A DNA stretch of 40,319 nucleotides from Candidatus Yanofskybacteria bacterium RIFCSPHIGHO2_01_FULL_43_32 (GTDB lineage: Bacteria > Patescibacteriota > Minisyncoccia > 2-02-FULL-40-12 > GWA2-44-9), in assembly GCA_001794125.1 (NCBI GenBank), contig MGJF01000003.1, positions 22,114-62,432 of the forward strand, given 5' to 3'. The translations under genes and the position numbers were made by a program. Of this stretch, positions 19,678 through 26,939 are shown piece after piece (the stretch's first letter is position 1; each line of letters starts with the position of its first letter). A model generated the notes under the pieces. The model made no database searches, was not told where the DNA came from, and saw nothing but the letters and a program-made list of their open reading frames with translations.

Positions 19678-21783
19678 ATGCGTGACTATGCTATAGATAA
19701 AACCAGAAATATCGGCATCATTGCTCATATAGATGCCGGAAAAACAACCGTTTCCGAAAGGGTGCTTTTTTATACCGGAGTTTCTCATAAAATAGGAGAA
19801 GTTCACGAAGGAGATACGGTTATGGATTGGATGGAACAGGAGAGAGAAAGAGGAATTACCATTACCTCGGCCGCCACGACTGCTTTCTGGACCCCGTTGG
19901 GATTGCCTAAAAATAAAGATAACGAATATAAATTTAACCTTATTGATACGCCGGGCCATATTGATTTTACCGTTGAAGTAAAACGCTCTTTGAGAGTATT
20001 GGACGGAGCGGTTGTGGTTTTTGACGGAGTGGCCGGGGTGGAGCCGCAGTCGGAAACGAATTGGCGCTATGCCGACGATTACAAAGTGCCGAGGATTTGT
20101 TTTATCAACAAGTTGGACCGCCTCGGCGCTTCTTTCGAAAGATCTTACCAGTCCATTCTTGCTCGGTTGACTCCCAATGCCGTCAGAATGCAGATACCCG
20201 ACGGAGAAGAGGACCAGTTTAAGGGAGTGGCCGATCTTTTGACCCAGAAATATTATGTTTTTGAAGGCGAGCACGGAGAAAGAGTGCTTGAACAACCGAT
20301 TCCGGAACACATCGCGGGAAAAGTAAAAGAGCTTCACGGGGTTTTAGTTGAGAAGATCGTTGAGAACGATGACGAGGCCATGAGCCAATATCTTGAAGGA
20401 AAAGAAATCCCGGCAGAAAAATTAAAAGAAATTTTGAGAAAAGCTACTATTGAGAATAAAATAGTTCCAGTTTTTACCGGTTCGGCCCTTAAAAACAAGG
20501 GAGTTCAATTCATGCTTGATGCCGTTGTTTATTATCTGCCTTCGCCGGTTGATTTGCCTCCTTTAATGGCGCATGACGCCAAAACAGGTGAAGAAGTAAG
20601 ATGCGAACCATTAGACGACACTCCTTTTGCGGCCCTTGCTTTTAAGGTTGCCACTGACCCCTACATGGGCCAGCTGACATTCTTCCGTGTTTATTCCGGG
20701 ACTTTAAATACCGGGTCTTATGTATTGAATACAACAAGCAATCAGCAGGAGCGCATCAGCCGCTTAGTCCGGATGCATGCTAATGAAAGAAAAGAAATTA
20801 AAGACGTATTGGCCGGAGATATTGTGGCAACAGTAGGAATGAAAGCCACAAGAACAGGAGACACTCTTTGCGATCCCGACCATCCGGTTGTTTTGGAGAG
20901 AATTGAATTTCCGGAACCGGTTATTTCTTTGCGCATAGAACCGAAGACCAAAGCCGACCAGGAAAAGATGGGTATATCTTTGAAAAAATTATCAGACGAA
21001 GACCCGACTTTCAAAATAAGGAGCGACGAAGAAACCGCGGAAACAATTATTTCCGGAATGGGAGAATTGCACTTGGAAATTATCGTTGACCGCATGAAGA
21101 GAGAATTCGGGGTCAATGTAAATGTCGGCCGGCCGCAGGTTGCCTACAAAGAGACAATTTCCGACAAATCCCAAGCTGAAGGCAAATATATCAAACAATC
21201 CGGAGGCCGCGGACAATACGGCCATGTTTGGCTGCGCGTTGAACCGAAAGAACGGGGAGCCGGATTTGAATTTATTGATGCCATCAAAGGCGGATCCATT
21301 CCCGAAGAATTTATTACCCCGGTTGAAAAAGGTGTTAAAGAGGCGTTGGACAAGGGAGTTATCGCCGGTTTTCCGGTGGTAGATATGCAAGTTACTTTAT
21401 ACGACGGTTCTTACCATGAAGTCGACTCGTCTGAAATTGCTTTCAAAATTGCCGGAACTATGGCGCTTCAGGAGGCCATCAAAAGAGCAAAACCCATCCT
21501 GCTGGAACCTATCATGAAGGTTGAGATTATCGTCCCCGATTCTTTTATGGGTGAGGCCACCGGAGATATCGCGTCACGAAGAGGCCAAGTATTAGGTATT
21601 AACGACAGGAGTCCGATGAATTTGAAGGTCATTGACGCCAGAGTTCCATTGTCGGAAATGTTCGGTTACGCTACTTCGGTAAGGTCCTTGACTGAAGGAC
21701 GCGGCACGTTTAATATGGAATTCGACCACTACGAACCCGTGCCGAATAATATGGTTGAACTTATCAAAGAAGGAAAGAAATAG
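19678..21783 (+). CDS. fusA: Elongation factor G
   Basis: NIGIIAHIDAGKTTVSERVLFYTG; ERERGITITSAATTAFW; DTPGHIDFTVEV. Confidence 0.98.
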   Translation: MRDYAIDKTRNIGIIAHIDAGKTTVSERVLFYTGVSHKIGEVHEGDTVMDWMEQERERGITITSAATTAFWTPLGLPKNKDNEYKFNLIDTPGHIDFTVEVKRSLRVLDGAVVVFDGVAGVEPQSETNWRYADDYKVPRICFINKLDRLGASFERSYQSILARLTPNAVRMQIPDGEEDQFKGVADLLTQKYYVFEGEHGERVLEQPIPEHIAGKVKELHGVLVEKIVENDDEAMSQYLEGKEIPAEKLKEILRKATIENKIVPVFTGSALKNKGVQFMLDAVVYYLPSPVDLPPLMAHDAKTGEEVRCEPLDDTPFAALAFKVATDPYMGQLTFFRVYSGTLNTGSYVLNTTSNQQERISRLVRMHANERKEIKDVLAGDIVATVGMKATRTGDTLCDPDHPVVLERIEFPEPVISLRIEPKTKADQEKMGISLKKLSDEDPTFKIRSDEETAETIISGMGELHLEIIVDRMKREFGVNVNVGRPQVAYKETISDKSQAEGKYIKQSGGRGQYGHVWLRVEPKERGAGFEFIDAIKGGSIPEEFITPVEKGVKEALDKGVIAGFPVVDMQVTLYDGSYHEVDSSEIAFKIAGTMALQEAIKRAKPILLEPIMKVEIIVPDSFMGEATGDIASRRGQVLGINDRSPMNLKVIDARVPLSEMFGYATSVRSLTEGRGTFNMEFDHYEPVPNNMVELIKEGKK

Positions 21784-21784
21784 C

Positions 21785-21904
21785 TCACACAACCTCTATG
21801 TATGCTGCGTAGCGCACTTTTCTGAAATCTACTAATTTCATAAAAGCACGCTACCTCCGCCGGTTGCTTAGTAAGCAGATGATGACTGGCAATAGGGGTT
21901 CAAA
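21785..21904 (-). repeat. Dispersed structured repeat family A, copy 2 (inverted)
   Basis: Minus strand TTTGAACCCCTATTGCC...AAGCAACCGGCGGAGGTAGCGTGCTTTTATGAAATtagtagATTTCAGAAAAGTGCGCTACGCAGCATACATAGAGGTTGTGTGA. Confidence 0.85.
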
Positions 21905-21972
21905 GTTTCTCTGAAATAAAGTGGGGTGCTGTGTTTGATTTTTATCTTAAAACCTGCGATAATTCCAGTTAA

Positions 21973-24654
21973 ATGGATAAAAACCAGGCTAAACTCACAA
22001 TTCAAAAACTCGTAGAAAAGCATGAGGAAGTTTTAAGGTCCGGTAAGGCTAAAACATACACAGAAGAAGATACTAAAAAGGGATTTATCGTCCCGCTTTT
22101 TTCTGCGCTTGGGTGGGACATGGAAGATAGAAATGAAGTCACATCCGAAGAGCATATTTCTGGCGACAGGGTGGATTATGGATTTTATGTCAATGGCCGC
22201 CCTAAATTTTATTTAGAAGCGAAACCTTTTAAGGCTGATTTGAATAATGCCAAGTATGCCCGACAAGCAATAAAGTATTCTTGGAACAAGGGTGTAACTT
22301 GGGCAGTTCTTACCGACTTTGAAAGTATCAAAGTTTTCAACGCCGATTTTCAGGCAGAAGAACTGGCTCATAGCAAATTCTTTGAAATTTCTTACGACAA
22401 GTATCTTGACGATTTTGATCGCCTTTGGCTTTTATCCAAAGAATCTTTTGAGAATGGTGATATGGATAAAAAGGCAGAAGAATGGGGGAAGTCCTTAAAA
22501 CGAGCATCTGTTACCGACGCTCTTTATAAGGACCTAACGGAATGTCGTAAACTTTTGACTGACAGCTTAAGACGCTGGAATGAAAAAGTGCCGGAGGACT
22601 TGCTTGATGAAGGTGTGCAAAAACTTTTAAATCGCCTTGTTTTTATTAGGGTTTTAGAAGACAGGAATATTGAACCCCAGATATTAAAAACCATTGTGCG
22701 GGAATGGGGGGCGGGGCATTATGATAAAAGTCGGCCTCCGCTCTACTTGTCATTAGTGAAAAAATTTAGAGAACTTGATGTCCAATATAATTCTAATCTT
22801 TTTGATGAGCATCCTTTTGAAACATGGGAAGAACACGACAATTATACCAAAAAAGTCATAGATATTTTATATGGAAAATCGGGATATTATGAATATGACT
22901 TTAAGATTATGCCAGCCGATATATTAGGTGCCGTATATGAGAATTATTTAGGATATAAATTAGAACAATTAAAGAAAGGTAGCAAGATTGGTCAGGACTC
23001 TAAAAAACGCAAAGAGCACGGAATTTACTACACGCCGGAATTTATTGTTGATTACATTATAAAAAACGCGCTTAGGCCAGTCCTGGAACAATGCGAAACC
23101 ATAGATGAGTTGATGAAAGTAAAAGTCCTTGACCCGGCATGCGGTTCGGGGTCATTTCTTATTAAAGCGGTTGATGCCATCTATCAGAGATATTGTGAGA
23201 TGAGCTTTCGCGGTTCGCCTACATATAAAAAAATTCAGATTATCACTCAAAACATTTATGGTGTAGACCTGGATTCACAAGCGGTTGAAATTGCCCGATT
23301 AAACCTTCTTATCAATGCCGTAGAAGAAAAAATTCTTTTGCCTTCGTTAGCGAAGAATATTAAAAACGGCAACTCGCTTATTTCTGGCACGGACGAAGAA
23401 CTCAAAAAATATTTCGGCAATAATTTTCGTGAAAAAAAGCCATTCAACTGGCGAGAAGAATTTCCAGAAGTTTTTAAACGGGGTGGTTTTGATGTCATAA
23501 TCGGTAATCCTCCTTGGGGTGCCAATTTAGAAAGCAATGAAAAAGATTTTTATAAAAATTTATTTGTAACTGGCATAGGTATAGTAGATACATTCGCCTT
23601 ATTTGTAGAGAGGTCTACAAAATTTTTAAAAGATAGTGGGAAACTAGGTCTCGTATTACCAGACATAGTCCTCTTAAAAAATTATCCCAATGTAAGAAAA
23701 TTGATTCTCGATAACTTTCTAATATCACACATTTATTATACGGGTATGGCATTTCAGGGCGTAAATTTAGATTCAGTGGTCTTGATTTTCCAAAAAGAAA
23801 ATCAAGAAAAAATAAGAAATAATAACAATATTTCAGTGCTTATTGATAAAGAAGAGGGCAAGATTAAACAAACAGTTTTTCTTGAAAATAAAGACTATAA
23901 ATTTAATTTGCGTTTAAATCCTATAGTATTAAACTTTAAAGAAAAACTTGATGCATGTTCCATCAAGCTTGGGACTATTTTAGAAATTCACGAGGGTATA
24001 CACTCTGGAAATATAAGAGAAAAATTATTTACAGATTCACAAACATCGGGTAAGTCAAAAAAGCTTCTCTTCAAAGGGGTGGAAATAAATCGTTATTTTG
24101 AAAGCTGGGCTGGAAAATTTGTCAATTACGATAAGAGTGTAATCAATAAAGCAGCTGGCGAATATGCCAATCTAGGCAAAGACGAGTACTTTAGTAATGA
24201 AAAGATTTTGGTTAGAAGGACTGGAGATAAAATTATTGCTACCATAGACCGGGATGGTTACTTTGTAAGTAATAACTTTTTTGTTCTATACAAGAAGAAT
24301 TCGGATGACAAAATTAGCTTGAAATTTATTTTGGCGATACTAAATTCTGGTATAGGAACTTGGTATTTTTTAGCCATACAACCTCGGAAGGGTAAATTGT
24401 TTGCTGAGATAAAAATAAATCACCTTGCTGAAATACCAATACCAAAATTAAACCTTGAGAACAAACACATAGAGATAGTTAATTTAGTCGATCGGATGAC
24501 AGAGCTACAAAAAAATATACACTCCATGGAAGAGAATTCTAACGAATGGGGTCGATTAAAATCTGAAATCGAAAAAACTGATAAACAAATAGACCAAAAA
24601 GTTTACGAATTATACGGATTAACAGACGAAGAAATTAAAATCGTGGAAAAGTGA
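21973..24654 (+). CDS. Type IIG-like restriction-modification enzyme (N6-adenine methyltransferase with N-terminal nuclease-like domain)
   Basis: N-terminal GDRVDYGFYVNGRPKFYLEAK (D..ExK); DPACGSGSFLIKAVDAIY (motif I), IIGNPPWGANL (NPPW); C-terminal target recognition-like region. Confidence 0.88.
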   Translation: MDKNQAKLTIQKLVEKHEEVLRSGKAKTYTEEDTKKGFIVPLFSALGWDMEDRNEVTSEEHISGDRVDYGFYVNGRPKFYLEAKPFKADLNNAKYARQAIKYSWNKGVTWAVLTDFESIKVFNADFQAEELAHSKFFEISYDKYLDDFDRLWLLSKESFENGDMDKKAEEWGKSLKRASVTDALYKDLTECRKLLTDSLRRWNEKVPEDLLDEGVQKLLNRLVFIRVLEDRNIEPQILKTIVREWGAGHYDKSRPPLYLSLVKKFRELDVQYNSNLFDEHPFETWEEHDNYTKKVIDILYGKSGYYEYDFKIMPADILGAVYENYLGYKLEQLKKGSKIGQDSKKRKEHGIYYTPEFIVDYIIKNALRPVLEQCETIDELMKVKVLDPACGSGSFLIKAVDAIYQRYCEMSFRGSPTYKKIQIITQNIYGVDLDSQAVEIARLNLLINAVEEKILLPSLAKNIKNGNSLISGTDEELKKYFGNNFREKKPFNWREEFPEVFKRGGFDVIIGNPPWGANLESNEKDFYKNLFVTGIGIVDTFALFVERSTKFLKDSGKLGLVLPDIVLLKNYPNVRKLILDNFLISHIYYTGMAFQGVNLDSVVLIFQKENQEKIRNNNNISVLIDKEEGKIKQTVFLENKDYKFNLRLNPIVLNFKEKLDACSIKLGTILEIHEGIHSGNIREKLFTDSQTSGKSKKLLFKGVEINRYFESWAGKFVNYDKSVINKAAGEYANLGKDEYFSNEKILVRRTGDKIIATIDRDGYFVSNNFFVLYKKNSDDKISLKFILAILNSGIGTWYFLAIQPRKGKLFAEIKINHLAEIPIPKLNLENKHIEIVNLVDRMTELQKNIHSMEENSNEWGRLKSEIEKTDKQIDQKVYELYGLTDEEIKIVEK

Positions 24655-24720
24655 CCCTATGGGTTTTCTTAGCGTTTCCAAACATGTTTTTGGTCATAGT
24701 ATCGTTTTATACTTATCAAC

Positions 24721-24748
24721 TTAAACTTTCCAGATATTCTGCTAAAAT
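24721..24748 (+). promoter_or_regulatory. Putative promoter for tRNA-like transcript
   Basis: TTAAAC - 16 nt - TAAAAT. Confidence 0.35.
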
Positions 24749-24777
24749 ATTGGCGGTGGTCTAGCTAGATTACCAAT

Positions 24778-24850
24778 GGGCCGGTAGTATTAACAGTTAA
24801 AATAGTTAGCTGATACCTAAAAGATACGGGTGCAAGTCCCGTCCGGTCCA
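24778..24850 (+). tRNA. tRNA-like sequence, anticodon GAU (Ile) if functional; degenerate or tRNA mimic
   Basis: 73 nt; acceptor GGGCCGG/CCGGTCC + A; T arm ACGGG-TGCAAGT-CCCGT; anticodon arm TTAG-CTGATAC-CTAA; atypical D loop and T loop (G at 55). Confidence 0.5.
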
Positions 24851-25002
24851 TACTTGACCTGTGTATATCTCTTGGTATATACTCATAGTAGGTATCAGCT
24901 AATCACTAGTGTTTTTCTTTGAGGTTCTTTAAGGGCTTCAAGGTTTTTATCCATTTCCTTGAAATTCTGGATTTCTTAATTCAGATAAAAACATTAGGCC
25001 TT

Positions 25003-25027
25003 CAGTCCCCGAAAGGGGGCTTTTGGT
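25003..25027 (+). terminator. Terminator-like hairpin
   Basis: AGTCCCCgaaaGGGGGCT followed by TTTGGTCTT. Confidence 0.55.
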
Positions 25028-25063
25028 CTTAACTATCATAGCCCATATCTTATTTCAGGCGAG

Positions 25064-25182
25064 TTTGAACTTTTATTGCCGATTGTTACCTACCACCCAA
25101 CCAACCGGCAGAGGGGGTGTGCTTTTTTAAAATCAGTAGTATTTTTAAAAAGTGCACCCCGCAGCATGCGTAGAGGTTGTAG
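25064..25182 (+). repeat. Dispersed structured repeat family A, copy 3
   Basis: TTTGAACTTTTATTGCC...CCAACCGGCAGAGGGGGTGTGCTTTTTTAAAATcagtagtATTTTTAAAAAGTGCACCCCGCAGCATGCGTAGAGGTTGT. Confidence 0.85.
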
Positions 25183-25239
25183 GGTGCTATCTGAAATGAA
25201 GTTGCATTTTTTTGAATATTTTAATAATATACTCCAGTA

Positions 25240-25566
25240 ATGAACATAGACGAACTAAAAAAATTAGTTAAGCATTCTACGGCGGTTTTAGTGCTGGATA
25301 ACGGAGAGCCGTCTTTTGCGATTTTAAGCTATGAGATGTATAAGGATCTTGTTTTGGGCGGAAAAGAAAAGGAAATCAAGATAAATCACACAGTTACTAA
25401 TGGAATAAGCCAAAAAGAAAACATAATTCCTCCTGCAAAACCCACACTTCCCGACAACGAGCTCGAGATACTAGAAAGGATAAATAAGGATATATTGGCT
25501 TTACAGAGTGAGATAGAGAAAGAGGAAAAATTGGTGGCAGTTGATCCCTCACCTTTCGTGGATTAA
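25240..25566 (+). CDS. Small hypothetical protein, possible Phd/YefM-like N-terminus
   Basis: MNIDELKKLVKHSTAVLVLDNGEPSFAILSYEMYKDLV; weak resemblance only. Confidence 0.5.
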   Translation: MNIDELKKLVKHSTAVLVLDNGEPSFAILSYEMYKDLVLGGKEKEIKINHTVTNGISQKENIIPPAKPTLPDNELEILERINKDILALQSEIEKEEKLVAVDPSPFVD

Positions 25567-25612
25567 TCTTGTCTATGGCATAGTGAATGCATATCCACAA
25601 AAGGTGAGGGAT
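25544..25612. repeat. 20-bp near-perfect inverted repeat between the 108-aa ORF and the tuf promoter
   Basis: ATCCCTCACCTTTCGTGGAT(25544)/ATCCACAAAAGGTGAGGGAT(25593), one mismatch. Confidence 0.75.
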
Positions 25613-25640
25613 TGACTAATCGGCGCCATTCCGCTAAAAT
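25612..25640 (+). promoter_or_regulatory. Sigma70-type promoter for tuf
   Basis: TTGACT - 17 nt - TAAAAT. Confidence 0.7.
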
Positions 25641-25736
25641 AGATATTACGTGTTTAATTAATGTAATGGCCAATAGGATAGATAGCCAATAGTCGAAAAC
25701 TATTTGCTAATCACTATTCGCTAATCACTAAAGCAA

Positions 25737-26939
25737 ATGGCAGGGAAATTTGAAAGAACTAAGCCGCATTTGAATGTCGGCACAATCGGTCATGTTGACC
25801 ACGGAAAAACCACGCTAACGGCGGGTATTTTGCATGTTTTGAATTTAATGAAAGATGACGGGTATTCTGCCCGTGAAGAAGGAGTAGACCAGATCGACAA
25901 CGCTCCTGAAGAAAAGGCCAGAGGTATCACTATCGCTTTACACCACTCTGAATATGAGACGCCCAAGCGCCACTACGCTCACGTTGACGCTCCGGGCCAC
26001 GCCGACTACATCAAAAACATGATAACCGGCGCCGCCCAAATGGATGGAGCGATTTTGGTTGTTGCCGCCACTGATGGTCCTATGCCTCAAACAAGAGAGC
26101 ATATTTTGCTTGCAAGACAAGTTGGTGTTCCCAACATTGTCGTATTTCTTAACAAAGTAGACATGGTTGATGATTCGGAAATGGTTGACTTGGTTGAAGC
26201 CGAAATAAGAGAATTATTGAATAAATATCAATTCCCCGGAGACAAAACCCCGATTATTCGAGGTTCTGGCTTGAAAGCCCTTGAAGCCAAATCAAAAGAT
26301 GACCAGTATGCCAAGCCGATTAAAGAATTGATGGATGCATTGGACACTTTCTTTCCGGATCCCGTCAGAGAAGTTGAAAAACCGTTCCTCATGCCCGTTG
26401 AAGACATATTTTCAATTGAAGGAAGAGGAACCGTTGTAACGGGAAGAATTGAAAGAGGAAAGGTCAAACTCAATGAAGAAATCGAGATAGTCGGCATCAA
26501 ACCGACTGCGAAGACCGTTGTCACCGGTATTGAAATGTTCAATAAGCAATTGGACGAAGGTATGGCCGGAGACAATGCGGGGATACTTTTAAGAGGAACC
26601 AAGAAAGAAGAAATTGAAAGAGGACAGGTTTTGGCAAAGCCGGGCACGATTACTCCTCATACCGACTTTGACGCAGAAATATATGTTTTGACAAAAGAAG
26701 AAGGCGGAAGACACACCCCTTTCTTCAAAGGATACAAACCTCAATTCTATTTCCGAACCACCGATGTTACGGGAGAAGTATTATTGCCGGAAGGAACCGA
26801 GATGGTAATGCCCGGAGACACCATAAGTTTGAAAGTACAGTTGATTGCTCCTATCGCTATGGAAGAAAAGCAGAGATTTGCCATTAGAGAAGGAGGCAAG
26901 ACTGTCGGTGCCGGAGCCGTAACCAAAATTAATAAGTAA
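25737..26939 (+). CDS. tuf: Elongation factor Tu
   Basis: [52 protein letters not shown]. Confidence 0.98.

Follow-up and report, generated by a model that had tools for sequence, protein, structure and literature searches.

A tRNA-like RNA with a complementary neighbor in Patescibacteria: a candidate antisense-controlled alanine-acceptor tRNA mimic

The window, i.e., the whole 40,319-nt stretch of DNA from Candidatus Yanofskybacteria bacterium RIFCSPHIGHO2_01_FULL_43_32 analyzed here, contains a tRNA-shaped RNA followed by a perfect complement of its own anticodon arm. The locus raises the question of whether this RNA is a tRNA at all, and of what an adjacent sequence able to cover its anticodon arm would mean. 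The initial annotation proposed one transcript that switches between a tRNA fold and a fold in which the arm is masked. The most likely reading, which we hold with moderate confidence, is an antisense-controlled alanine-acceptor tRNA mimic, made up of a tRNA-like RNA (B) and a small partner RNA (A).

The tRNA-shaped RNA of the window

The 73-nt tRNA shape of RNA B (Table 1) was recognized by the Rfam tRNA model with 48.1 bits (gathering score, 29), tRNA being the sole Rfam family above its gathering score, and ARAGORN called it tRNA-Ile(gat). The acceptor, A73, the TGCAAGT T loop, and the atypical D loop, which lacks G18G19, were all as first described. The suspicion that this is not an ordinary tRNA-Ile was borne out by the presence of a canonical tRNA-Ile(GAU) in the same genome (G000:C3:9966-10038), and that identity was rejected. 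Since the canonical gene is present, window B would be dispensable as tRNA-Ile in this genome of 0.76 Mb, where 49 tRNA hits were obtained. The pair G3:U70 is the alanine identity pair, following the identity rule of alanyl-tRNA synthetase (AlaRS), and the acceptor of window B, with G3:U70 and A73, points to alanine rather than isoleucine, as judged from its sequence. Its anticodon loop, CUGAUAC with A37, resembles a decoding loop. When considered as a tmRNA, the window RNA proved to be a contiguous 73 nt with neither a reading frame nor pseudoknots between the tRNA halves, and a separate tmRNA of this genome was located at G000:C1:35468-35827.

The changed elbow pair was seen as described but is not odd alone. 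A TGCAA T loop (G55) likewise occurs in the ordinary tRNA-Tyr of the same genome (within L031); an altered elbow is thus not unique to the tRNA-like RNA, and in the relatives of window B described below G55 accompanies the loss of G18.

Table 1. Features of the A/B locus (positions in the window)
Feature	Position	Strand	Basis
RNA B, tRNA-like, alanine-type acceptor (GGGCCGG/CCGGTCC, G3:U70, A73)	24778-24850	+	ARAGORN, Rfam tRNA model, identity to G024, covariance models
G3 of the G3:U70 pair (partner U70 at 24847)	24780	+	Direct sequence reading
B anticodon arm, TTAG CTGATAC CTAA, target of the complement	24806-24820	+	Sequence and arm comparison
Possible extended -10 element of B, TGCTAAAAT (uncertain)	24740-24748	+	Direct sequence reading
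RNA A, putative start and end; 5' end, anticodon-arm complement; 3' end, terminator	24889-24948	+	Promoter and terminator scans, family spacing rule
14-nt perfect complement of 24806-24819	24889-24902	+	Arm comparison, shuffles
Promoter-like site of A, TTGACC-18-TATACT	24854-24883	+	Promoter scan; position relative to complement kept in relatives
A terminator, stem 24917-24943, then TTTTT	24917-24948	+	Terminator scan
Second terminator-like hairpin, further downstream	25004-25021	+	Terminator scan

The complement as the probable start of a second RNA

The perfect complement of the anticodon arm was confirmed: the two 14-nt arms (24806-24819 and 24889-24902) are 100% complementary, and in 5,000 dinucleotide-preserving shuffles the 250 nt downstream of the 73-nt RNA never contained a perfect 14-nt complement to it. 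The folding z score of the region was -4.3. The terminator-like hairpin reported near 25003 was found, together with an earlier one that ends in a T run (Table 1). The promoter scan yielded TTGACC-18-TATACT as the only sigma-70-like match in 24600-25240, a result that is not significant alone (shuffles averaged 1.9 matches), and gave no such site for B in that region. As for the GTATAT/ATATAC hairpin between the two arms, it is present but its meaning differs from the one proposed, since it includes the -10 element of this promoter-like site.

The window thus combines a promoter-like site, a terminator, and a complement to the B anticodon arm, and the complement probably marks the start of A, an additional small RNA transcribed from its own promoter and ended by its own terminator. 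Because the complement lies at the expected start of such an RNA, and because this second RNA sits upstream of B in 53 of the 56 distinct loci described below, the single switching transcript is probably wrong. What stands of the proposed switch is the masking of the anticodon arm, the complementarity being kept with changing sequence in about 55 loci. Given that no clear T-tailed terminator was found between B and A in the window or in its closest relative (G024), read-through pairing in cis may take place at these two loci.

Closest relative and distribution of the B family

A search of 58 relatives with the window region gave one good match, in a genome of the same family (G024), with 76% identity to window B over 76 nt (E = 5e-6). 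Conservation between the two covers the tRNA 3' half, and the anticodon arm differs; downstream, G024 has a perfect 14-nt complement of its own arm (0/5,000 shuffles). The complement is therefore kept in relatives, and the opposite case, an ordinary tRNA followed by an unconserved complement, fails on this point. Both loci share the layout of B, promoter, and 14-nt complement, with different sequences, the G024 promoter-like site (TTGACA-17-TATACT) lying between B and the complement, ahead of its A. The downstream region of G024 also carries complements of the D-arm and acceptor strands, and its locus had a folding energy of -123.5 kcal/mol (z = -12.2).

A pattern search across the class revealed numerous RNAs sharing this 3' half, of which ARAGORN rejected the majority. 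A covariance model built from 12 RNAs, those of the window and G024 included (R1), found 44 B genes in 34 of the 384 genomes of the class (E at most 1e-13) and B in 4 further genomes among 380 sampled in the phylum; the same-genus relative G001 had none in the R1 search. When 85,462 species genomes were scanned with a pattern, 24 loci were recovered; their named records all belong to Patescibacteria lineages (Yanofsky-, Nealson-, Uhr-, Harrison-, Sungi-, Azam-, Campbell-, and Gribaldobacteria, plus others). Altogether, about 55 related B RNAs were found in Patescibacteria, with a patchy distribution and one to three copies per genome. Most of those tested escape both ARAGORN and the Rfam tRNA model; when 11 loci were compared with Rfam, only tRNA scored above its threshold, in 2 of the 11, and no other family matched.

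Structure of RNA B across the family

In 23 members, G000 and G024 excluded, 97.6% of the cells of the 20-pair cloverleaf were paired, and 68 cells had changed on both sides, compared with 21 in shuffles, a value above those of all 500 shuffles. Pair 3:70 was G:U in 53 of 56 RNAs and A:U in the other 3, and A73 was present in 54 of 56. The acceptor 3' strand belonged to the search pattern used for the first members, so its conservation is inflated; the 5' strand did not belong to it, and the model searches were unrestricted. The elbow covaries as well: all 9 RNAs with U55 have G18, while none of the 49 with G55 does (position 18 being assigned by motif).

Decoding tRNAs carry a purine at position 37. 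In the B family, the matching position was C or U in 53 of 53 tabulated pairs, within a 9-nt anticodon loop (NNUYNNYAM) that has no conserved anticodon; on sequence grounds, this loop is unsuited to decoding. The cloverleaf, the acceptor with G3:U70 and A73, and the elbow pairing are what B shares with canonical tRNA (RF00005), from which it differs in that loop, with its pyrimidine at 37, in having its own promoter and terminator, and in the neighboring A.

A -10 element matching at least 5 of 6 positions precedes B in 38 of 50 loci, mostly 6 nt ahead of GTGGA(YC). In 50 of 56 RNAs, the 5' leader, GTGGAYCYG, is complementary to the acceptor 3' strand (8 to 9 of 9 pairs), and 47 of 52 fold predictions preferred this pairing to the acceptor helix. 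The alternative fold is absent from the window, G024, U668, and U559. The conservation of U70 may partly reflect pairing with the leader.

RNA A and its predicted pairing with B

Of the 56 distinct loci, 53 carry the A unit immediately 5' of B, encoded on the same strand. Its promoter matches at least 10 of 12 consensus positions in 48 of 52 cases, and the complement mostly begins 6 to 8 nt past the -10 element. The order of parts in A is promoter, complement of the 5' half of the arm, hairpin, complement of the 3' half, and terminator, which makes A something other than a simple antisense copy. The five pairs of the A stem, predicted independently by RNAalifold, had all changed on both sides (5/5). 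The A alignment is short and only 55% identical.

The match between A and the 3' half of the B anticodon arm was 10/10 in 46 of 53 pairs and 9/10 in the remaining 7, whereas a 10/10 match was found in only 2 of 65 ordinary tRNA occurrences at G000 loci (overlapping loci, some counted repeatedly). Loop positions l5 to l9 were paired in 265 of 265 cells, with about 15 different sequences; when A was swapped between systems, pairing fell to 77%. The duplex energy was -16.4 kcal/mol with the own A versus -10.2 kcal/mol with a swapped A. The shuffle controls leave the shared ancestry of the sequences in place; inheritance alone is nevertheless unlikely as the cause of the A:B match, because many different matched sequences exist. 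If both halves paired, strand exchange between A and the stem of B would produce two helices, one of about 8 pairs and one of about 10. This two-helix form was better than the separate hairpins in 51 of 53 pairs, with a mean net energy of -9.6 kcal/mol in simple sums that leave out the junction cost. The weakest paired position was l4 (36/53), at the junction of the two halves.

Comparison across loci therefore supports, at the level of sequence, the existence of the two genes, the fold of B, the stem of A, and a coevolving A:B complementarity. In the explanation that we propose, the locus would belong, as a diverged member, to a two-RNA system of Patescibacteria. B would fold as an L-shaped tRNA with an alanine acceptor signature and, probably charged with alanine by AlaRS, would work outside normal decoding. 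A would be a separate small RNA of about 60 to 90 nt, with its own promoter and terminator, that pairs with its cognate B at the anticodon arm and opens this arm, so holding B in check in an antisense- or antitoxin-like role. We infer separate expression of A, binding of A to B in the cell, charging of B with alanine, and a restraining action of A rather than a structural partnership. A more specific version, put forward only tentatively, is an RNA-only addiction or control system in which the alanine-charged tRNA mimic is the active species and A, complementary to both arm halves, strand-exchanges into a two-helix complex.

The layout of most loci, with A (strong promoter, terminator) directly upstream of B on the same strand, would also suit a leader or attenuator of B transcription, B binding nascent A as feedback. 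This follows the logic of T-box riboswitches, RNAs that read a tRNA's anticodon region. Unlike a T-box, A would pair 9 to 10 nt per half instead of a codon, its partner is its own neighbor, and no regulated protein gene lies 3' of it. Two features make attenuation less likely: most loci provide B with a -10 element of its own at a constant spacing, and in the window and G024 the order is reversed, with A following B. Moreover, the paired segment and the terminator stem do not overlap. We regard this alternative as improbable.

Equally doubtful is a lasting complex of both RNAs, such as a tmRNA-like particle in which A replaces the anticodon arm. The two pairing halves can in principle form together, the junction position l4 is the least paired, and the acceptor is of the alanine type, as in tmRNA, but no conserved reading frame was seen in A, and a tmRNA match was obtained in 58 of 58 relatives including G000, 52 of them over the cutoff. 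The presence of tmRNA in the same genomes speaks against a role as a tmRNA substitute. With tmRNA (RF00023), A/B has in common the alanine-type tRNA-like acceptor and an anticodon arm given over to other RNA pairing; it differs in consisting of two separate RNAs, with no reading frame and no pseudoknots, in genomes that also have tmRNA. The antisense-controlled mimic remains the preferred reading.

The window as a probable member of the family

Window B scored 65.7 bits with R1, a model built including it. With the model built without G000 and G024 (R2), it scored 50.0 bits, inside the range of ordinary tRNAs (a tRNA-Ala hit of G000 scored 55.3), whereas G024 scored 70.2 bits, clearly above them. 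The leader of window B ends in ACCAAT and its loop is CUGAUAC, the family leader GTGGAYCYG and loop NNUYNNYAM being both absent. In the window and G024, A comes after B, whereas it precedes B in the other loci; the complement, continuous in the former two, is elsewhere split into two halves around a hairpin. With a leave-out score of only 50.0 and an atypical leader and loop, the grounds for membership are the resemblance to G024 and the A unit lying downstream.

The leave-out score, together with the lack of B in the only same-genus genome (G001), would suit a decaying tRNA gene beside a local inverted repeat, outside the family. Such an origin is unlikely for the window element, given the 76% identity to the G024 member noted above and the common layout of promoter and 14-nt complement, found in 0/5,000 shuffles for each locus, with complementary arms that differ in sequence between the two. 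We consider it likely that the window locus is a diverged member of the two-RNA family.

Comparison with known systems and significance

In the ColE1 RNA I/RNA II system, a small RNA pairs with its partner's stem-loops, as predicted for A on B. Those RNAs come from opposite strands of one DNA, whereas A and B are separate same-strand genes whose match is confined to the anticodon arm. RNA toxin-antitoxin pairs such as CreT/CreA (PMC8501985, PMC10097628) likewise consist of two linked small RNAs, one of which possibly affects translation. CreA acts there through the CRISPR effector Cascade, whereas A would pair directly with the tRNA-like RNA. The pseudo-tRNA tRNAOther of Bacillus cereus is a tRNA-like RNA outside translation; it belongs to an unrelated lineage, and its abstract mentions no dedicated antisense partner (PMC3399842).

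A literature search, with subscription papers mostly outside its reach, retrieved no description of such a tRNA mimic/antisense pair. A tRNA mimic paired with a dedicated antisense RNA would extend the range of known bacterial RNA systems. In some 55 loci the tRNA-like RNA and its partner stay matched while their sequences drift, in hosts with very small genomes, where such extras cost. The system offers a clear test of whether alanyl-tRNA mimics are used outside translation in bacteria, and some odd tRNA genes of Patescibacteria may be other things.

Genomic context

The A/B loci are intergenic and lie in many different contexts. In the window, the pair is located in the interval 19678-26939, downstream of fusA and of a type IIG restriction-modification gene (21973-24654) and upstream of tuf; a 108-amino-acid open reading frame with no Pfam match also lies between fusA and tuf. 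Together, the restriction-modification gene, the A/B locus, and this reading frame form an accessory insertion in the housekeeping str operon. In four genomes of two families (G135, G257, G243, and G258; loci L197, L193, L178, and L188), the space between atpA and atpG holds an A/B pair in antisense orientation, and relatives of three of the four hold other insertions, or little, at that site. Mobile-element ends were sought by means of the empty atpA-atpG site, and this approach was discarded, the relatives being too divergent to define boundaries. An all-against-all comparison of neighboring genes showed no protein family recurrent beside most loci, and a conserved protein partner was rejected. 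Viral contigs searched with the 5' pattern contained no B. A viral or phage origin was also rejected: the looser 3' pattern matches sit among phage tRNAs and tmRNAs, none of them B-like in score.

Varied intergenic sites, including insertions between operon genes, would suit an RNA-only toxin-antitoxin module, the stronger form of the explanation preferred here. In this module, A would be the antitoxin and B a toxic alanine-acceptor mimic, acting by sequestering AlaRS or EF-Tu or through misuse by the ribosome. The strict A-B linkage (53/56 loci) argues for such a module, as do the patchy presence (34/384 class genomes), with up to three systems of different pairing sequences per genome, and a near-consensus A promoter beside a weaker B promoter. 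Patchy, multicopy presence fits other accessory RNAs as well, however, and the viral contigs searched were free of B; the module is possible but less likely than not.

Some individual loci showed further peculiarities. At L143 (G019), a large serine recombinase-like gene directly follows B, about 73 nt downstream of it, a possible case of an RNA gene used as an integration site. L199 (G166:C17) has two B/A copies 1 kb apart, with identical B and flanks, due to either segmental duplication or an assembly artifact. B lies within about 250 nt of a contig end at L177, L194, L195, L150, L145, and L192, which may point to repeats or strain variation. At L206 (G308), B breaks off after CCGG near its 3' end and gives way to unrelated sequence, as would result from an insertion. 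Finally, a tRNA gene lies immediately 3' of B at L201 (G065), so the 3' end of that B may come from tRNA processing.
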